Source of the DNA: Lysinibacter sp. HNR
GTDB taxonomy: Bacteria; Actinomycetota; Actinomycetes; Actinomycetales; Microbacteriaceae
Length of the DNA stretch: 64,000 nucleotides
Assembly: GCF_029760935.1 (NCBI RefSeq)
Contig: NZ_CP121684.1
Coordinates: forward strand, 1,116,001-1,180,000
Direction: 5' to 3'
This document shows positions 6,973 to 16,061 of this stretch, piece by piece. Numbering within the stretch: the first letter of the stretch is position 1; every line of letters starts with the position of its first letter. Made by a program: the position numbers and the translations under genes. The notes under the pieces are model-generated. The model ran no database searches. It was not told where the DNA came from and worked only from the letters and a program-made list of their open reading frames with translations.

Positions 6973-7905
6973 GTGTCGCATTTTTTGCAAACCCCCGCGT
7001 GGGGTGAGTTCCAAAAGGCTTTGGGGCGAACGGTTGTAGAAGATTCGGGTGAGGGATGGCGCTATTTAGCAATCCTTGAGAAGGGACGCATTAACTCGCG
7101 TCTCTATACCCCCTACGGTCCGGTAGTGAATTCTCTCGATTACCTACCTGCCGCTCTTAGCTCGCTTGTGAGCGCTGCAAAAAAGCTTGGGGCTGTTTTT
7201 GTGCGGGTTGAGCCCCTGGTGATTACCCCCGGTGACACAGAATTATCCAGCGTGGTAAACGCTTTTGAGAGTGCGGGCCTGCGTCGAACCAATTATGTGC
7301 AGCCTGAGCAGACCTGGCGTGTTGATCTGACACAGTCCGAGGAACAGGTTCTTAGCGGACTCTCAAAAACCGGTCGTAACCTGTACCGTAACTACAGCAA
7401 AAAAGGCCTGTCGATTCGATCAAGCGATAGCCCCGAGGACGTTGAGGACTTTCTTCAACTGGTGAAGGGAGTGGCGGAGCAGGCTGATATTCGCCAGCAT
7501 CCGGATAGTTATTTCCGTCGCCAGGTTGAAATACTTCTGCCTCGGGGCAATGCCCGTCTGTATTTTGTTGATTTTGAGGGTAGCCCTATTGCGGCTTCGC
7601 TTGTATATGATGACGATAACCGTCGATACTACGCGCACGCGGGAGCGAGCTATGAGCACCGCCGTTTGCATCCCGGCAACGTTTTAGTTACTCAGATGAT
7701 GCTGGATGCTCGTGAGAGCGGGAAAGCTGAGTTTGACTTCTATGGTGTGTCTCCCGCCGATCAGCCGGATCACGCCTGGGCTGGATTTAGCAAATTTAAG
7801 CGATCCTTCGGAGGATATGACTACCACTTTACGGGTACGTGGGAGTTGCCTGTAAAGGTTGGGGGATACACGCTGTATCGTCTCCTGCGTCGCATTATGG
7901 ACTAG
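6973..7905 (+). CDS. FemAB/FemX-family peptidoglycan bridge aminoacyltransferase
   Basis: The 310-residue protein has the two GNAT-like halves of the FemABX family, which add amino acids from aminoacyl-tRNA to lipid II or related peptidoglycan precursors at the cytoplasmic membrane. Supporting features are the N-terminal FLQTPAWGEFQ block, the LYTPYGPVV segment, the RNLYRNYSKKG stretch, and the late ARLYFVDFEGSPIAASLVY and FDFYGVSPAD blocks. There is no obvious coiled-coil arm of the FemA/FemB type, so it is closer to the short FemX/FmhB or MurM-like type. The start is a GTG at 6973 after AAAGGA. Its stop overlaps the oppositely oriented nucleoside hydrolase by 11 bases. The residue it adds cannot be predicted; a DAP pathway (dapA, dapF) is present in this window. 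Confidence 0.8.
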   Translation: MSHFLQTPAWGEFQKALGRTVVEDSGEGWRYLAILEKGRINSRLYTPYGPVVNSLDYLPAALSSLVSAAKKLGAVFVRVEPLVITPGDTELSSVVNAFESAGLRRTNYVQPEQTWRVDLTQSEEQVLSGLSKTGRNLYRNYSKKGLSIRSSDSPEDVEDFLQLVKGVAEQADIRQHPDSYFRRQVEILLPRGNARLYFVDFEGSPIAASLVYDDDNRRYYAHAGASYEHRRLHPGNVLVTQMMLDARESGKAEFDFYGVSPADQPDHAWAGFSKFKRSFGGYDYHFTGTWELPVKVGGYTLYRLLRRIMD

Positions 7906-8887
7906 TGGGGGCTTGAGCGTTTTCTTGTTCCTCGGGGACCCCTAGGGCGGATAAGAAGCGCGTGTGGAATCCTGCGATGTCAACGTTCTGCACTATTCGG
8001 ATAACGCCGGGAGCTTTCGGGTTGGTCGGGGTCGGAAGGAACATGCGCTGATCACTCACAATTTGACCCCGTGAGATTGATCCGCGGAGTTCAACCTTGG
8101 CCTGCACCAGGCGGTATTCCGCGAGCTGCGGCTCCAACGCTAGGGCCAGAGCAAGAGGGTCATGTAATACGCAGGTTCTGTACCCAAAAGACTTTTCGTA
8201 CGACTCGAGGTAGAAATCCATGATGTTCGCTGCAAATTGAGCTCGAGGATCGGTGCTTTTTTCAATCTGTCTGACCGCTTGGGCGGTGAGCGCGGTTTGT
8301 AGGGTTATTTCCAGTCCCACGAATAATACGTCCCAGGCAGCATCGATAACCACCTGAGCGGCCTCAGGGTCGTGCCAAATGTTTGCCTCTGCCACCGCTG
8401 AGGCGTTACCTGGCACACCCACGGCCCCTCCCATGATGACAACGTTTTTGATGAGCGCTGGTAGCTGGGGTTCGAGGAGCAGAGCGATTGCTATGTTGGT
8501 GAGTGGCCCTACCGCAACTAGGCTAAGTTTTCCCGGATTTTCACGTGCAAGACGGACGATAACTGCGGCGGCCTGATCCCCCGAGAGCGCACGTGCAGAG
8601 GGTGTGATTTTGGCGTCTCCAAGGCCGTCCTCACCGTGGACCGCTTCGGCTGTGCGTAGTGGTTGCGCGAGGGGTCGGGCAGCTCCAGAGAAGACGGGGA
8701 CCTCTTGTTTGCCAAGGAAGTCTAATACGGTGACGGTGTTCCGGCTGCCGACCTCAACGGGCACGTTCCCGTGGGTAACCGTGCACGCCACGAAGTTTGC
8801 GCCGTGATGTGCCCCATACATCAGAGCGAGGGCATCATCAATACCGGTATCACAGTCGAAGATAAGGGGAAGTTTCATCTTTGTCAC
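7895..8887 (-). CDS. Inosine/uridine-preferring nucleoside hydrolase
   Basis: Hydrolyses ribonucleosides to free base and ribose in the cytosol. The diagnostic calcium-binding motif DCDTGIDDA spans residues 11-19, and the substrate loop AVHGEDGLG, the VAVGPLTNIA block and a late HDPLA motif are present; the length of 330 residues is typical. Two starts are possible: GTG at 8885-8887 (MTKMK) or ATG at 8876-8878. It is the last gene of the nucleoside locus, 125 bases after the second permease, in a very AT-rich spacer that may hold its own promoter. With the importer and ribokinase upstream it completes a route from external nucleoside to ribose-5-phosphate. Its 3' end overlaps the FemAB-like gene by 11 bases. 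Confidence 0.92.
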   Translation of the reverse strand: MTKMKLPLIFDCDTGIDDALALMYGAHHGANFVACTVTHGNVPVEVGSRNTVTVLDFLGKQEVPVFSGAARPLAQPLRTAEAVHGEDGLGDAKITPSARALSGDQAAAVIVRLARENPGKLSLVAVGPLTNIAIALLLEPQLPALIKNVVIMGGAVGVPGNASAVAEANIWHDPEAAQVVIDAAWDVLFVGLEITLQTALTAQAVRQIEKSTDPRAQFAANIMDFYLESYEKSFGYRTCVLHDPLALALALEPQLAEYRLVQAKVELRGSISRGQIVSDQRMFLPTPTNPKAPGVIRIVQNVDIAGFHTRFLSALGVPEEQENAQAPTSP

Positions 8888-9012: not shown

Positions 9013-9957
9013 TCACGACGGTCGCATTTTTTGTGATTGCGCGTTGCCACGCAGAAGCGATCGTATTCTCAAACCAGAAAAGACGAGGGCAACTATCGTA
9101 ATAATGTAGGGCATCATGAGGGCTATGTTTGAGTTTATTCCTGCGATTCCCAGGAGATCGGATAGTGCATCGGCCGCCCCAAATATTGTCGCCGCAACCA
9201 TCGTTCGTACGGGTCTTGCAAGGCCGAATGTGAGAGCCGCAACAGCGATAAATCCTCGCCCGGCGGTCATATCGGCGGAAAACGCTCCGATGGTTGCCAT
9301 CGCTAGTTGGGATCCGGCCAAGCCACAGAACACACCGGAAAGAAGCACACTCATAAACTTGACTCGCAATACGCGGACGCCTGCGGCCTGCGCGGCGGCT
9401 TGGTCCTCACCAGCAGCGCGGAGGTGGACCCCAAAACGGGTTCTGTACAGCAGGAAAGAACAGAGCGGTACCGCCGCGAAGGCTAACCAGACCAGGACGG
9501 TTTGATCGTTGAGGGTGGGGCCGAGCACAGGGATTTCAGCGAGTGGACCCAACGATATCTTGGGCAGTGTTATGGTCTTATCGGGTGGTGTTACCCCGGC
9601 ATTACCGTAGAGGGTCACCAGAAGAAACACGGTGAGTCCGACGGCCAAGAGGTTAACCCCTATGCCCACCACAATCTCGTCGGCGTGAAAGTGCAGCACT
9701 ATTATGGCAAAAATTAAGGCGAGAAGGGCGGCTGCAAGCACGCCCGCCACGAGCCCGATGAATGAGTTGCCCGTTGTGATCCCGACGCTAATCGAGGCAA
9801 AAGCACCCAGAAGCATCATCCCCTCAAGGCCGATATTGAGCACGTTTGCTTGCTGGGTAAGCGCTCCGCCCAGTGCCGCGAGGAGGATCGGCGTGACCTT
9901 TGCAAGGATAACCGCGAGGGTTGCCGCTGTGAAAAGCTGTGCGAGTAGGTCGTTCAT
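9013..9957 (-). CDS. Nucleoside ABC transporter permease (NupQ/YufQ-like)
   Basis: A 314-residue membrane protein with eight to ten hydrophobic segments and the branched-chain/ribose-type permease signature (GLEGMMLLGAF, LRAAGEDQAAAQAAGVRV). It pairs with the BMP lipoprotein and the ATPase-permease fusion encoded just upstream; such BMP-family importers (NupNOPQ in Bacillus and Lactococcus, RnsABCD in Streptococcus) carry purine and pyrimidine nucleosides. The ATG at 9955-9957 overlaps the TGA stop of the fusion gene (ATGA), so the two are translationally coupled. It represents the second of the two transmembrane subunits of the importer. Confidence 0.88.
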   Translation of the reverse strand: MNDLLAQLFTAATLAVILAKVTPILLAALGGALTQQANVLNIGLEGMMLLGAFASISVGITTGNSFIGLVAGVLAAALLALIFAIIVLHFHADEIVVGIGVNLLAVGLTVFLLVTLYGNAGVTPPDKTITLPKISLGPLAEIPVLGPTLNDQTVLVWLAFAAVPLCSFLLYRTRFGVHLRAAGEDQAAAQAAGVRVLRVKFMSVLLSGVFCGLAGSQLAMATIGAFSADMTAGRGFIAVAALTFGLARPVRTMVAATIFGAADALSDLLGIAGINSNIALMMPYIITIVALVFSGLRIRSLLRGNAQSQKMRPS

Positions 9958-12746
9958 GAGTTTGCCTCCAGCGATGTTGAGGTTAAACCGTGCCGTTTAT
10001 GCAGGCGGAAGAGTCGGACGAGTCGTTCTCGAGTGTGCTTGTTGATGATGACGGTTGCTGTGATGAGCAGGATAATGAGACCCTGCAAAATGTTTACCAG
10101 GGGGTATGGAACCTCGGTATTGATCTGCATTCCGTTCGAACCGGACATCATGGTGGCGTAAAAGGCCGCCGCGAAGATTCCTGCCCAGGGATTGAGCCTG
10201 GCGAGAAGGGCAACGGTGATACCGAGGAATCCATATCCCGGTGAGAATATCTGTAGGAATTGTCCGCCGTTGGGGCCGAGGACAAAGAGGGAGCCGGCGA
10301 TACCGGCGAGGCCCCCGGAGAGCGCCATCACCTGAACACTGAGAATCCTGGTTGATACCCCTGTGTAGGGAGCAAAATTATTGAGTTCACCAACCTGACG
10401 AACCCGTAGGCCCCATACGCTGCGGGTAAGAAGAAGTGCGGTAAGACACACCACGATAAGCGCGAGGAGGAGATCCGCTCCGATGCCGAAATCCTCATTA
10501 AAGAGGGGAAGCATAGCCTGGGGTGCAATGGGTGGGGAGGCGGCCATGGTGAGCTCTGGGTCTTTAAGCGGCCCCGTAACCAGGTAGGCGGTGAGTAGGA
10601 CCCCTATTGAACTCATCATTAGAGTTGTGACGATAATGTCCACGCGCCATAGCGCAAAAAGGGTTCCGGGGATGCTTCCCCAGAGTGCGCCTCCGAGGAA
10701 CCCCGCACCGATGACGACGGCGGTGAGAAGGGGCCCGGGGAGATCGGAGAGGATGTGGCCGACGAGTGCCGCCGAGAGTGCACCCAGATACAGTTGCCCC
10801 TCTCCACCCAGGTTAAAGAATCCCGCGCGAAATGAAAGTGTTACCGCCGTGGCCATGATTACCAGGGGGATGAACTGTGCGATGAGTGCTGCGATGCCGA
10901 ACGAAGAACGGAAGCTTGAAAAGAACAGCTCATCGTACGCCCGAATGGGATTTTCGCCGATTGTGATGATAATTGCCGCGCCGATGAGAAGGGAAACCGC
11001 AACGGCTATGACGGGCTGCACGGATCCTTTTGCGAGGGAGCGCAGGAACCTCAGCATTCTCTGCCGCACAGGCTCTTTGCTCGTGTCCTGGGGGGAGGCT
11101 CCCGTCTGGTGCTCCGTGAAAAGAGGATATTCGGGGGTGTCCTCCTGTTTTTGCTCTGTGAGCAGGGGAGAGGTGGAATCTTGAAGGTGGTGTTCTTGTG
11201 ATTGTTTTTCCTGTGCGGCAGCGTTTGGAAGAGCTGGAGGGACCTGTCCCGTCATGGCTAGGCCGATGGCCTCCTCCGTCATGGTGTGTCGAGTGAACTC
11301 CGCAATGATGCGTCCGCGGAACATCACAACGATGCGATCCGAGAGCGACATCACCTCGTTCAGGTCAGCAGAGACGAGTAACACGGCACTTCCTTCGTCG
11401 CGTGCCGCTATCAGAGAACTGTGCACAAACTCCATGGCTCCAACGTCCACCCCGCGGGTGGGCTGTGATGCGATGAGGAGGGAAGGGCGGGTGATGAGTT
11501 CTCTTGCGATAATCACCTTCTGCATGTTTCCGCCCGAAAGGTTTTTGATTGGTGTCGCGGGGTGCGCTCCCCGAATATCGAAGAGGGAAATCAGTTTTGC
11601 CGCGAATTTTTTGCTCCTTGCCGTGCTGATCCATCCCGCGCGAACCCTGGGAGGGGTTGCGTGCGTTGCTAGGACGTTATCTGCCACCGAGAGAGACGGC
11701 CCTGTCCCTACGCCCAGCCGATCTTCGGGAATATAGGCGAGGCCTTGTTTTCGACGTTGCGCCACCGATTCATGTGTAATATCGTGGCCGTGAAGTGTGA
11801 GCGTTCCAGAGTCTGTCCGGGTAAGACCAGCGATGATCGAGGTGAGTTCTGCTTGGCCGTTCCCCTCGACCCCTGCAATACCAAGGATCTCTCCCGAACG
11901 CAGAGTGAGGTTGAGCCGGTTAAGTACGGTAACTCCGCGCTCATTCACATGGGTCAGATCTTTCACCGTGAGGGTTTCCTGCGTCGCTTTCCCCGGGGCA
12001 AAGGAGCTACGCAGGAGGACCTCGCGTCCTACCATTAGTCGAGCGATGTCTGACTGTGTCATACCCGTCGACTCGTGTGTACCCATGTTCTGCCCATCAC
12101 GAATAACTGTAAGAACCTGAGCAACGGCAAGTACCTCGTCTAGTTTGTGGGAGATAAACACAATTGCGCAACCAGCCGCGGCAAGTTTGCGAATAACGGC
12201 GAAGAGGTCTTCCGCTTCGCTGGGTGTGAGCACGGCGGTGGGTTCATCCAGGATGAGAATCTTTGTGTCATAGCTGAGTGCCTTGATAATTTCGACGCGC
12301 TGACGTAAGCCAATCGAGAGGTCTCTCACGAGCGCCTGGGGGTTGATCTCCAAGCCAAATTCACCCGCGAGCCTGTTCACTTTTTCTGCCATGAGTTTGG
12401 TGTCGAGAGTTCCCCATGATGTTCGCGGTTCGCGCCCCAGGAAAACGTTGGCCGCAACTGAGAGGGAGGGAACCAGTTTAAAATGTTGGTGAACCATACC
12501 GATTCCGAGTCGTGCGGCGTCCCGAGGACCTGCTATGGTCACTCGGATCCCGTTCACGAGGATTTCGCCCGAGTCGGGGATCTCGGTGCCGGCAATCATC
12601 GACATCAATGTAGTTTTCCCGGCCCCGTTTTCCCCAACGATGGCGTGTACCTGGCCGGGGAGCATGGCAAAGGAAATATTATTATTTGCGACTTTATCTC
12701 CAAAAGCTTTGGTGATGTTTCTTAGTTCGAGTAGCGCGCTCGGCAC
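9954..12746 (-). CDS. Nucleoside ABC importer: tandem ATPase fused to permease (NupO-NupP fusion)
   Basis: One uninterrupted 930-codon frame joins two proteins that are normally separate. Residues 1 to about 500 are a double ATPase of the RbsA/NupO type: domain 1 has Walker A GENGAGKTT, signature LSIGLRQRV and Walker B ILILDEPT; domain 2 has a degenerate P-loop (GVEGNGQAE), LSGGNMQK and IASQPTRG, as usual for this family. A hydrophilic Gln/Glu-rich linker follows (about 500-565). Then comes a complete NupP-like permease (about 566-930) with multiple membrane segments and FFNLGGEGQLYLGALSAA. The start GTG at 12744-12746 follows AGGGAGGT. A Met near residue 562, at the beginning of the permease, is preceded by a weak AGAGA and might allow internal initiation. 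The next gene overlaps by ATGA. Confidence 0.92.
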   Translation of the reverse strand: MPSALLELRNITKAFGDKVANNNISFAMLPGQVHAIVGENGAGKTTLMSMIAGTEIPDSGEILVNGIRVTIAGPRDAARLGIGMVHQHFKLVPSLSVAANVFLGREPRTSWGTLDTKLMAEKVNRLAGEFGLEINPQALVRDLSIGLRQRVEIIKALSYDTKILILDEPTAVLTPSEAEDLFAVIRKLAAAGCAIVFISHKLDEVLAVAQVLTVIRDGQNMGTHESTGMTQSDIARLMVGREVLLRSSFAPGKATQETLTVKDLTHVNERGVTVLNRLNLTLRSGEILGIAGVEGNGQAELTSIIAGLTRTDSGTLTLHGHDITHESVAQRRKQGLAYIPEDRLGVGTGPSLSVADNVLATHATPPRVRAGWISTARSKKFAAKLISLFDIRGAHPATPIKNLSGGNMQKVIIARELITRPSLLIASQPTRGVDVGAMEFVHSSLIAARDEGSAVLLVSADLNEVMSLSDRIVVMFRGRIIAEFTRHTMTEEAIGLAMTGQVPPALPNAAAQEKQSQEHHLQDSTSPLLTEQKQEDTPEYPLFTEHQTGASPQDTSKEPVRQRMLRFLRSLAKGSVQPVIAVAVSLLIGAAIIITIGENPIRAYDELFFSSFRSSFGIAALIAQFIPLVIMATAVTLSFRAGFFNLGGEGQLYLGALSAALVGHILSDLPGPLLTAVVIGAGFLGGALWGSIPGTLFALWRVDIIVTTLMMSSIGVLLTAYLVTGPLKDPELTMAASPPIAPQAMLPLFNEDFGIGADLLLALIVVCLTALLLTRSVWGLRVRQVGELNNFAPYTGVSTRILSVQVMALSGGLAGIAGSLFVLGPNGGQFLQIFSPGYGFLGITVALLARLNPWAGIFAAAFYATMMSGSNGMQINTEVPYPLVNILQGLIILLITATVIINKHTRERLVRLFRLHKRHGLTSTSLEANS

Positions 12747-12792: not shown

Positions 12793-13827
12793 TTACAACG
12801 TGCTGGAAACTGTGATCTCTCCGGAGATGACTCTGTCTGCAAACTCGGCTATACGCTTCTGAATCTCGGCTGAGACAATGTCGCCGTTATCTTCGAAGAT
12901 GAGCCCAACACCCCCGTTTGCCAGCCCGTATTCGGTGGTTTTGCCATAGGCCAGGCTTCCCTTTTGTGATTCTGCAACGGCGGTGCGTAGCGATTCTCCG
13001 ATGTTTTTGACCATCGAAGCAAGGATTGCTCCCTGGTGGAATGAATTTTGGTTTGCGTCAACACCTATTGCGTAGCGCCCGCTGTCGTTTGCGGCCTTGA
13101 GTACACCCAACCCGCTGCCTCCAGCTACTTGAAAGATGACGTCTGCATTCTGGTTGAACATGGCTTGTGCCTGGTCATAACCCTTGTTGGAATCTGCATA
13201 GTCTCCGACAAACGAGTCGAGGACACGGATTGAGGGATCTACGGCGTGAACACCCTCGGTAAAGCCAACCAAAAAATCGCGGATGATCGGAACGTCTACG
13301 GCCCCCACCATACCCACCGTTTTGCTGCCCGAGGCACGTGGAAAGGATTCCGGATCTGAGGTGACAAGTGCGGCAAGAACTCCCGCAAGGAACGCGCCCT
13401 CGTTCTGCTTGTATGTAATTGAGGCGACATTGGGTTCTTTTACGACGTCGTCGTAGGTGATGTATTTTTGTTCGGGATGTTTTCGCGCGGTCTGGGTGAG
13501 AATGTCCGTCATAAACGACGTTCCGGTGATCACGATGTCGAATTGTCCTGTTGACACGGACTCAATATTGGATTTCCACTGGGCCGGATCTTCCTTCTTG
13601 CCCTCAATATTTTTGATCGTGTTGCCATCTTGTTCGATAAGTTTCATGCCGCGTGCAGCATCATCAAAAAAGCCCTGGTCTCCAAGGGGCCCGCTGAACA
13701 CGTTCACAACGCTATAGCTATCTGTGTTCGTACCGGACCGTGGTGACTCTTGTTGAGCGCCACATCCGGTGAGGATGAGTCCCAGGATTGCGATGGATGC
13801 CGTGGTGGTGAATAAACGGGCTTTCAT
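12793..13827 (-). CDS. BMP-family nucleoside-binding lipoprotein
   Basis: A 344-residue extracytoplasmic solute-binding protein. The signal peptide ends in the lipobox LTGC, so the mature protein is lipid-anchored at Cys22. The body matches the basic membrane protein (BMP/PnrA/Med) family: SGPLGDQGFFDDAARG, FLAGVLAALV, VGMVGAVDVP, AQAMFNQNADVIFQVAGGSGLGV and GVDANQ. Characterised members bind nucleosides. It lies between the ribokinase gene and the ATPase-permease fusion in the same direction and supplies the receptor of that importer. A ribosome site (AAAGGAGC) is visible on the minus strand just before the ATG. Confidence 0.92.
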   Translation of the reverse strand: MKARLFTTTASIAILGLILTGCGAQQESPRSGTNTDSYSVVNVFSGPLGDQGFFDDAARGMKLIEQDGNTIKNIEGKKEDPAQWKSNIESVSTGQFDIVITGTSFMTDILTQTARKHPEQKYITYDDVVKEPNVASITYKQNEGAFLAGVLAALVTSDPESFPRASGSKTVGMVGAVDVPIIRDFLVGFTEGVHAVDPSIRVLDSFVGDYADSNKGYDQAQAMFNQNADVIFQVAGGSGLGVLKAANDSGRYAIGVDANQNSFHQGAILASMVKNIGESLRTAVAESQKGSLAYGKTTEYGLANGGVGLIFEDNGDIVSAEIQKRIAEFADRVISGEITVSSTL

Positions 13828-13894: not shown

Positions 13895-14848
13895 CTATGG
13901 GTTGACGAGGTTGCGGACGGATTGTTGATTCGGCATGGCGGTTGTTGCGCCAAACGACTGCACGGAGAGGGCGCTTGCGGCAATAGCCCACTGGACGGCG
14001 TTCTCTAGGGAATTGCCGTTTGCTAGCGAGTCGGCAAGAGCTCCAACAAAGGTGTCTCCCGCCCCCGTGGTGTCGGTAACAGATACCGATGGTGGTAACC
14101 AGGAGGACGCCTCCTGACCGTTCCAGAGGTAAGCTCCGCGTTCTCCTAGTGTCACCACCAGCCTGAGGTGGGGTGGTAATTGTGTGCGGGCACGGGAGGT
14201 AAAGGCATCAACCTGCTGTGGGGCGGGGTGTTGAAAGACGCTGAGATACTCGGTTTCGTTGACAACGAGTACATCGGTGAGTGCAAGTAATTCTGGGGGA
14301 ACCGGCCCGGCAGGGGCGGGATTGAGGATAAAGGTTCCGCGGCACAGTCTAGCTGCCTCGAGCGTTGCAACCAGGGGAACTTCGTATTGACAGACAACCA
14401 CCACCGCCTGCCGAATGATATCGGAGGAGCCGTGTATGTCGTTCTCTGAGAGGGTGGCGTTTGCCCCGGGAATGATGACGATATGGTTTTCGGCGTTACG
14501 GTCTACCGTGATGAAGGCTAATCCCGTGGGTTGTTCGGAGTACCGGAGGGCTCGTGTGCTGACGCCTTCTTGAGTGAGAAGTCTTCGCGCGGTCTCTCCG
14601 TGCTCGTCATCACCGATTCGAGCGATGAGGGCGACGCTCTGACCAAGGCGTGCGGCAGCAATGGCCTGGTTACTTCCTTTGCCACCAGAAAACCGAGCAA
14701 AGCCAGTGGTGGGTATGGTTTCTCCTGCGCTGGGTAAGTGCTGTACCCGAGCAACAAGATCCGTATTGATGCTTCCCACCACCACGACCCGCGGTGCGGA
14801 ATTGGGGTGGTGGGAGCGGGAATTTGTGTCCTGCATGATGAGCGGCAT
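13895..14848 (-). CDS. rbsK: Ribokinase (PfkB family)
   Basis: Phosphorylates ribose to ribose-5-phosphate with ATP in the cytosol. The 317-residue protein has the N-terminal VVVGSINTDLVARV strand, the substrate motif SGGKGSNQA (about 52-60), GANATLSEND, and the C-terminal PfkB signature DTTGAGDT with the catalytic Asp in GAGDT (262-266). The PfkB family also includes nucleoside and adenosine kinases, but the GSINTDL and SGGKGSNQA blocks and the context favour ribokinase. It is the first gene of the minus-strand nucleoside locus, downstream of a strong promoter and a LacI-type operator. Its N-terminal 18 residues before APRVVVVG are poorly conserved; an alternative start at residue 5 is possible. 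Confidence 0.9.
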   Translation of the reverse strand: MPLIMQDTNSRSHHPNSAPRVVVVGSINTDLVARVQHLPSAGETIPTTGFARFSGGKGSNQAIAAARLGQSVALIARIGDDEHGETARRLLTQEGVSTRALRYSEQPTGLAFITVDRNAENHIVIIPGANATLSENDIHGSSDIIRQAVVVVCQYEVPLVATLEAARLCRGTFILNPAPAGPVPPELLALTDVLVVNETEYLSVFQHPAPQQVDAFTSRARTQLPPHLRLVVTLGERGAYLWNGQEASSWLPPSVSVTDTTGAGDTFVGALADSLANGNSLENAVQWAIAASALSVQSFGATTAMPNQQSVRNLVNP

Positions 14849-14901
14849 CGCTACTCCATTGGGTAGGGGGATAACTTCAGCGGGTGTGTTTTTGATGGAC
14901 G

Positions 14902-14915
14902 AGAAAACGTTTTCT
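14902..14915. promoter_or_regulatory. LacI-family operator
   Basis: AGAAAACGTTTTCT is a perfect 14-base palindrome with the central CG usual for LacI/CcpA-family operators. It begins 7 bases downstream of the -10 of the rbsK promoter, where a bound repressor would block initiation. The LacI-family gene is divergent and immediately adjacent. Confidence 0.75.
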
Positions 14916-14922
14916 GGTACTT

Positions 14923-14967: not shown

Positions 14968-15050
14968 AAGCTGTAATAAGAAATGGGTTCTACGCTGAGC
15001 GTGGTGAATAAATACGCGTGAACCGCATACTTTTGACGGAGGGTGCCAAA

Positions 15051-16061
15051 ATGACGAAGAGGATTACGGTGGTACAGGTTGCGGAAGCGGCTAATGTTTC
15101 CCCGGCAACAGCCTCCCGTGCACTGGCGGGAAACTCAAGCGTGGACCCAGCGCTCGCAAAGCGAGTGCTGGAGGCGCGCGATCAACTGGGGTACCGGGCG
15201 AATTTCCTCGCCAGGGCATTGCGTACCAGTCGCACGGATACCGTGGGAGTCATCGTGCCCTCGGTGTCGAACCCTTATTTTCTCAGCGTCATTGAATCCC
15301 TTGAACTAGCCTTTGATGAGGTGGGGCGTTCTATTATCCTGTGTGACTCTCAGGGCAGCATCGAGAACGAGACCCGTCGAATTCACACCCTCCGCCAGCA
15401 CATGGTTGACGGTTTGGTGATCATTCCGATGCGTAATCGACCCCACTCGGATGCGCTTGAGAACATTGCACGGACAATGCCTGTAGTGCTTTTCGACCGT
15501 TTTGTGCCCATCGGAGGCGTCGATTTTGTCGGCTCTGATGATGACTATGGCGTTCGGGAGAGTGTAAATCATCTGCTTCAAAGCGGGTGTACTTCGTTTG
15601 CTTATATTGGTTCTCAACCCGATTCGAGCACCGCCGAAGCTCGGCTTGTGGCCTTTCGAGCAGCTATGTTAGAGAGCGGTGAGGGAGTGCGTTTTTGTGA
15701 GTTTCTGGGAGGATTTAGCGCAGATTTTGGCCGTGAGGCTGCGCAGCGTCTGGTTCGTGATGGGTATGTTCCCGACGCAATACTCTGTGCTGCTGACGTG
15801 ATTGCTATTGCGGTTCTTGACGTCTTACGGGGTTCTCACATCGCGGTTCCCGACGATGTAAAATTAGTGGGGTATGACGGTTTGTGGTTGTCCTCGATCT
15901 TTTCTCCCCGACTCTCCACAGTGGAGCACCCGCTCGATCAGATGGCGCATGCAACGGTGGGCTTGCTGCGGAGCAGGCAGGAGAATCCGCTCTTGGAAAA
16001 CCGCACGAGGATCTTTCAACCGCGCTTGATTATTCGCGAGTCGAGTCGAGGTTCCGAGTGA
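15051..16061 (+). CDS. LacI-family transcriptional regulator of the nucleoside locus
   Basis: A 336-residue repressor. The N-terminal helix-turn-helix with hinge (ITVVQVAEAANVSPATASRAL, cut here to its core AEAANVSPATASRALAG) lies at residues 4-26; the rest is a periplasmic-binding-protein-like sensor domain (VGVIVPSVSNPYF, GSDDDYG, AILCAADVIAIAVL, ending FQPRLIIRESS). The start is the ATG at 15051, seven bases after GGAGGG at 15038-15043; the frame is open to 15018 but that longer start lacks a ribosome site. It is divergent from the ribokinase-importer-hydrolase genes, and a perfect LacI-type palindrome lies on their promoter. Ribose or a nucleoside is the likely inducer by inference from context. 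Confidence 0.9.
   Translation: MTKRITVVQVAEAANVSPATASRALAGNSSVDPALAKRVLEARDQLGYRANFLARALRTSRTDTVGVIVPSVSNPYFLSVIESLELAFDEVGRSIILCDSQGSIENETRRIHTLRQHMVDGLVIIPMRNRPHSDALENIARTMPVVLFDRFVPIGGVDFVGSDDDYGVRESVNHLLQSGCTSFAYIGSQPDSSTAEARLVAFRAAMLESGEGVRFCEFLGGFSADFGREAAQRLVRDGYVPDAILCAADVIAIAVLDVLRGSHIAVPDDVKLVGYDGLWLSSIFSPRLSTVEHPLDQMAHATVGLLRSRQENPLLENRTRIFQPRLIIRESSRGSE

Follow-up and report, generated by a model that had tools for sequence, protein, structure and literature searches.

A tandem ATPase joined to its permease in a probable nucleoside ABC importer of Lysinibacter sp. HNR and scattered Actinomycetes

We analysed a 64,000-nucleotide stretch of the Lysinibacter sp. HNR genome (contig NZ_CP121684.1, positions 1,116,001 to 1,180,000; hereafter the window), and in particular a gene at 9954-12746 that encodes two ATP-binding cassette (ABC) ATPase domains and a membrane permease in one chain. 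ABC importers usually have their ATPase and permease as separate chains. An initial annotation of the window had read this single 930-codon frame as a double ATPase (one active and one degenerate P-loop), a hydrophilic linker and a permease, and the open frame, the Pfam domains and the site residues bear this out. The gene and the parts of its product are listed here.

9954-12746, minus strand: fused ABC importer subunit gene, an open frame of 930 codons (Pfam ABC_tran twice and BPD_transp_2; 16 fused homologues; AlphaFold2 model)
Residues ~1-245 of the fused protein: ATPase 1
Residues ~256-500 of the fused protein: ATPase 2
11049-11231, minus strand (residues ~506-566): linker of about 61 residues, with low model confidence, poor conservation among fusions and a codon-position composition like that of the flanking domains
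Residues ~566-930 of the fused protein: permease 1, a complete BPD_transp_2 permease

The frame opens with a GTG that is preceded by a strong ribosome site (anti-Shine-Dalgarno pairing -12.0), and its BPD_transp_2 domain covers residues 618-895, far above the Pfam cut-off. ATPase 1 carries the Walker A motif GENGAGKT together with the DE and switch His residues, while in ATPase 2 the Walker A reads GVEGNGQ (no Lys), SQ replaces DE and Ala replaces His, with LSGGN retained. By these residues, the protein is predicted to have one intact ATP site, formed by the Walker A/B and His of ATPase 1 and the LSGGN of ATPase 2, and one degenerate site. In our alignments, all 15 fused and all 89 separate rows have Q where the Lys of the second Walker A would stand, and D167, E168 and H200 were found in every one of them; the first Walker A Lys is present in 14/15 fused and 86/89 separate rows (the remainder are gaps). 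At the second Walker B Glu position there is Q in 15/15 fused and 82/89 separate rows, with H in six and E in one of the separate rows. Since the pattern of active and degenerate sites is common to fused and separate rows, it is a trait of the family and not of the fusion.

The same domain order, for which the initial annotation had suggested searching protein databases, recurred without a stop in 16 loci besides the window, whose products are 44-63% identical to the window protein, and the junction is unambiguous in 15 of them. ABC_tran and BPD_transp_2 were both found in 13/13 aligned fusions. When genome contigs were scanned for the permease, a locus was called fused if ATPase and permease lay in one stop-free frame and separate if they lay in different stop-to-stop frames; among the best 80 of 569 relatives this gave 12 fused, 60 separate and 8 undecided loci, the last including one cut by a contig end (L047). 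All 12 fused loci belong to Actinomycetota, and the titles of the fused loci name Modestobacter, Actinotalea, Micropruina, Propionicimonas, Leucobacter, Propionibacteriaceae and other Actinomycetes. Further fused loci came from the whole-genome samples, namely G057 (L010), G274 (L039, cut within the permease by the contig end), G1303 (L127) and G1363 (L128), of which the last places the fusion in a second single-contig genome. The G1303 fusion, from the same family as the window, is 73% identical to the Leucobacter fusions and 71% identical to the Propionicimonas fusion. Several of these loci have blemishes: L010 has one unknown base at the junction, where apparently ~17 residues are missing, in L048 the ATPase contains an unknown base and its N-terminus is broken, and L046 has ambiguous residues outside the linker; L053 and L054 share 97% identity. 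In-frame fusions numbered 3/299 in the same family, 3/396 in the same order, 2/394 in the same class and 1/396 in the phylum, in samples that overlap, that each count the window genome and that were searched at strict E-value limits (1e-230 for the family, 1e-140 for the order and the class, 1e-220 for the phylum) at which divergent fusions could be missed. Two phylum-wide matches (L124, L125) and three further loci (G005/L011, L041, L042) were considered as fusions and rejected as unfused neighbours. Among 379 plasmid records matched at E 1e-100, fusions were sought in the 8 with one place covering at least 80% of the query, and all 8 held two annotated genes; the remaining 371 had lower query coverage. 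The fusion is rare and patchy. No published description of it was found in searches of an open-access library, which does not prove that none exists.

The fused loci group together in trees of either part of the protein. The permease tree was built from the 104 of 122 loci that matched the ATPase at 250 bits and the permease at 90 bits (seven loci of the window genome were dropped, some being pieces of the window and others unrelated permease loci), and in it a branch sets all 15 fused rows apart from the others, with one change needed (Shimodaira-Hasegawa-like approximate likelihood ratio test, SH-aLRT, 94). With 30 of these 104 rows, including all 15 fused ones, the fused branch had a support of 98/96 in a concatenated ATPase and permease tree and of 88/82 in a tree of the ATPase; L127 and L128 are in no tree. 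The tree program warned of long branches and of an odd letter make-up in some unfused rows. The trees are consistent with a single origin of the fusion, most likely followed by its retention in scattered relatives, and the mixing of families among the fused rows suggests a degree of horizontal transfer. The unfused rows closest to them are L055 (Chloroflexi), L056 (Sphaerobacter) and L058 (Streptomyces halstedii), where the ATPase and permease genes overlap by 4, 8 and 4 nucleotides (nt), respectively. Among the 89 separate loci, 38 had an inferred overlap of 4 nt and 14 one of 8 nt, with the permease start placed at whichever start codon lay closest to the ATPase stop, a rule that favours short overlaps. 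Because two overlapping genes are found in the nearest unfused sisters, the fusion probably arose by the simplest route, a minor change of frame where two translationally coupled genes overlap. The window genome itself carries another ATPase-permease-permease set of this type, in unfused form (G000:C1:2497090-2501217; L004 and L006), the first permease of which has ~63 extra N-terminal residues and a gene that overlaps the ATPase gene by 4 nt. In this paralogue (L004), 72 residues lie between the conserved cores, compared with 66 between the same end points in the fused protein.

The linker is hydrophilic, and between fixed points its length ranges from 41 to 79 residues across the fused loci. 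Its sequence is poorly conserved, and no motif shared by the fusions was visible in the 13-row alignment. An AlphaFold2 model of the fused protein, made from the same alignment, had a mean predicted local distance difference test (pLDDT) score of 76.6 and a predicted template modelling (pTM) score of 0.61, with pLDDT below 50 at residues 506-559 and 561-564; the linker is accordingly modelled as disordered, and it looks like a passive tether. The GC content at the three codon positions, counted in the same frame, was 0.67/0.41/0.59 in the linker, 0.63/0.45/0.60 in the ATPase part and 0.61/0.45/0.64 in the permease, so that the linker resembles both flanking domains. Structure comparisons bore mainly on the ATPase half: the top Foldseek matches to the model include the Mycobacterium tuberculosis tandem ATPases DppD (8wdb_D) and OppD (8j5q_D), the Foldseek and VIA match lists are made up mostly of ATPase domains and exporters and carry little information on the permease, and the best 60 of 569 sequence matches of the whole fusion to solved structures align over the ATPase stretches.

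Around the fused gene lie the other parts of an apparent nucleoside import and catabolism locus, as listed here.

7895-8887, minus strand: inosine-uridine-type nucleoside hydrolase (Pfam IU_nuc_hydro, 3.3e-89; best solved chain 8ctm_A)
9013-9957, minus strand: second, unfused BPD_transp_2 permease, a NupQ-like partner (Pfam; overlaps the fusion gene by 4 nt)
12793-13827, minus strand: basic membrane protein (BMP)-type substrate-binding lipoprotein (Pfam Bmp PF02608, 9e-54; best solved chain 2fqw_A, TmpC)
13895-14848, minus strand: PfkB-family sugar kinase, ribokinase-like (TIGR02152, 291 bits, slightly below the cut-off of 299.65)
14903-14914, strand-neutral: palindrome GAAAACGTTTTC, a candidate LacI-type operator and the core of the inverted repeat at 14899-14918
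15018-16061, plus strand: divergent LacI-family regulator, RbsR/UriR-like (Pfam LacI and Peripla_BP_3; best NCBIfam models RbsR and UriR, below their cut-offs)

The second permease is 27% identical to the fused one (3e-9). The binding protein is related in sequence to the solved BmpA, BmpD and TmpC, and its best solved relative is TmpC (2fqw, 118 bits), which is PnrA, the receptor for purine nucleosides in Treponema. Bmp was the only Pfam family that the binding protein matched at E 0.001 or better. The Pfam and NCBIfam assignments and the neighbouring genes agree with the earlier view of this locus as a BMP-dependent nucleoside importer with a second, unfused permease adjoining. This gene set travels with the fusion, in that among 14 fused loci a BMP protein was found beside 12, a second permease beside 13, a nucleoside hydrolase beside 12 and a kinase and a LacI-type regulator beside 8 each, where some of the misses are due to cut contigs (L039, L048, L052). 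BMP, second permease and hydrolase are also present in the unfused sisters L055, L056 and L058. Three or four consecutive hydrolase-like frames lie 3' of the second permease in L043, L044, L049, L051, L053 and L054, compared with one in the window, which suggests a broadened nucleoside range in those fused relatives. In the window, the first GTG of the hydrolase frame (8876-8887) has a weak ribosome site (-1.3), and the true start may be an ATG three codons later.

The inverted repeat, ACGAGAAAACGTTTTCTGGT, lies between the kinase gene and the divergent LacI gene. Its core GAAAACGTTTTC has a single exact occurrence in the window and in the whole 2.9 Mb genome, and since it is unique the LacI regulator may well be a single-target local repressor. 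GAAAACGTTTTC has AAAACGTTTT in common with TGATAAAACGTTTTATCA, which a study of bifidobacterial ribonucleoside regulons gives as the consensus of RbsR3 sites (PMC4746261). Taken together, the operon and the unique palindrome suggest a putative role in nucleoside import and catabolism.

Our preferred reading, to which we give a probability of roughly 0.83, is that the locus encodes a NupNOPQ-like, BMP-dependent ribonucleoside ABC importer whose tandem ATPase and first permease became joined, most likely in a single event, in an ancestor of what is today a lineage scattered among Actinomycetes. The window holds a BMP/PnrA-like binding protein, a tandem ATPase with a degenerate second site and two different BPD_transp_2 permeases, as in BMP-dependent importers, and it departs from the canonical four-chain NupNOPQ layout, with separate ATPase and permease 1, by the single 930-codon frame, as do the 16 homologues. 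The operon is best accounted for by uptake of ribonucleosides, their hydrolysis and the phosphorylation of the ribose, where both the substrate and the direction of transport are inferred. In such a scheme, the BMP lipoprotein would capture the nucleoside, one fused chain and one copy of the free second permease would form the channel, and ATP turnover at the single competent site would drive import; the hydrolase would then split the nucleoside and the kinase would phosphorylate the ribose, while the LacI regulator would repress the operon through the GAAAACGTTTTC site. The fusion would keep the ATPase pair and permease 1 at a ratio of 1:1, and the transport chemistry would be expected to be the same as in the unfused type.

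Several observations weigh against this reading. The support for the fused branch in the permease tree and in the ATPase tree, each taken alone, is short of the starred level, and the unfused sister L058 is one of the long branches of which the tree program warned. The NCBIfam transporter models, both those among the 25 best of the fusion's 193 matches and those matched by the other subunits, are without exception under their cut-offs, so the assignment of the substrate rests on the neighbours and on the similarity of the binding protein. One fused relative (L045) had no hydrolase at the limit used, despite ~4 kb of sequence 3' of the second permease. For the permease there was no believable solved relative, the single match being at chance level (E 0.3), and the operator-like cores AAACGTTT, GAACGTTC, GAAACGTT and AACGTTTC were absent from 18 related loci, some of which may stop short of the operon promoter.

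Could the single frame be an artefact, or give rise to more than one product? The two genes of most unfused relatives occupy different frames, often with an overlap, and a single insertion or deletion would therefore fuse them on paper; a missed frameshift at the linker had been raised in the initial annotation as a possible flaw. The same stop-free domain order in 16 other assemblies, 15 of them with an unambiguous junction and one of them the single-contig G1363 (L128), means that the fusion is neither chance nor sequencing error, and together with the linker's codon-position composition it makes a sequencing or assembly error joining two separate genes in the window genome next to inconceivable. 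The idea that a free permease is also made, either by internal initiation or by cutting of the chain in the linker, which would restore an ordinary four-part importer, has some points in its favour: an in-frame ATG (Met564) stands just before the first membrane helix of the permease, in-frame ATGs lie a few columns from the same position in L049 (ribosome-site pairing -0.3) and L057 (-5.5), and a linker predicted to be disordered could be protease-sensitive. Set against this, no Met was found at the Met564 column in the other 12 aligned fusions, and the anti-Shine-Dalgarno pairing at Met564 is weak (-3.1, vs -12.0 for the fusion, -9.3 for the second permease and -8.1 for the BMP gene), though pairing is likewise weak where the kinase (-5.9) and the hydrolase (-1.3) start. 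Several relatives have in-frame GTGs with stronger pairing, yet at differing places, as expected of high-GC DNA. An extra, internally initiated permease, for which the earlier annotation had left room, finds no good support in these comparisons of start sites, and we consider a free permease from either route unlikely.

The importer might instead serve another substrate, such as a B6 vitamer, ribose or a modified nucleoside. In favour of this, the putative B6 ABC transporter models are the best NCBIfam match for the ATPase, the second permease and the binding protein, and the best permease-family match for the fused permease, and a ribokinase-like kinase is present in the operon. These models (NF047927-NF047930) are nevertheless far under their cut-offs, at 459/670, 171/465, 177/400 and, for the binding protein, 75/400 bits, and a B6 transporter was rejected on that ground. 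A nucleoside hydrolase beside the fusion in 12/14 fused relatives and TmpC as the best solved relative of the binding protein also speak against another substrate, which we hold to be quite improbable. An RbsABC-type ribose importer was likewise set aside, as the binding protein matches Bmp only and the RbsA model PRK10762 scores 409/745 bits.

Within the reading as a ribonucleoside importer, the tether itself may have been selected for function, by setting which permease sits on which ATPase, fixing their ratio and preventing permease-1 homodimers or mixing with paralogous importers, the window genome having the second, unfused ATPase-permease-permease set. We regard such selection as possible and rather doubtful. 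If the tether is functional, half of the importer would come naturally as a single chain, in which the roles of the dead ATP site and of the permease asymmetry could be tested directly. The conserved, apparently single-origin ATPase-ATPase-permease chain offers a natural construct, its stoichiometry fixed, for the study of importers in which one ATP site is live and the other dead, and annotators should not "correct" the joined frame.

Set beside the closest known systems, the fusion is genuine, though only a modest departure from a familiar transporter type. M. tuberculosis DppD and OppD likewise have two ATPase domains in one chain, but they are parts of the DppABCD and OppABCD peptide importers and have no fused permease. 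LivG-LivM-type fusions join a BPD_transp_2 permease and an ABC ATPase in an importer, with a single ATPase, a different family and a different domain order. The RnsBACD and Borrelia BmpD-type nucleoside importers are comparable through the window binding protein, which is related to the solved BmpA, BmpD and TmpC, and have separate subunits. The RbsABC ribose importer (CUT2, carbohydrate uptake transporter family 2) shares the tandem ATPase with one degenerate site and differs in its two copies of one permease (RbsAC2B; PMC11466899), as well as in its binding-protein family and in having no ATPase-permease fusion. The Bacillus subtilis guanosine importer NupNOPQ has, according to the same source, a binding protein, a tandem ATPase with a degenerate second site and two different permeases, while its ATPase NupO and permeases NupP and NupQ are separate chains and here ATPase and permease 1 are one. 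The source describes the degenerate second-site pattern for NupO and, in part, for RbsA, and calls the role of joining two ATPases currently unclear (PMC11466899). The importer had been described as asymmetric by construction; the asymmetry is there, but it is not new to the fusion, as unfused NupNOPQ already has an active and a degenerate ATPase in one chain and two different permeases (PMC11466899), and 89/89 unfused rows are without the second-site Walker A Lys. The fusion's own contribution is to bind permease 1 covalently to the two ATPases and to fix their ratio.

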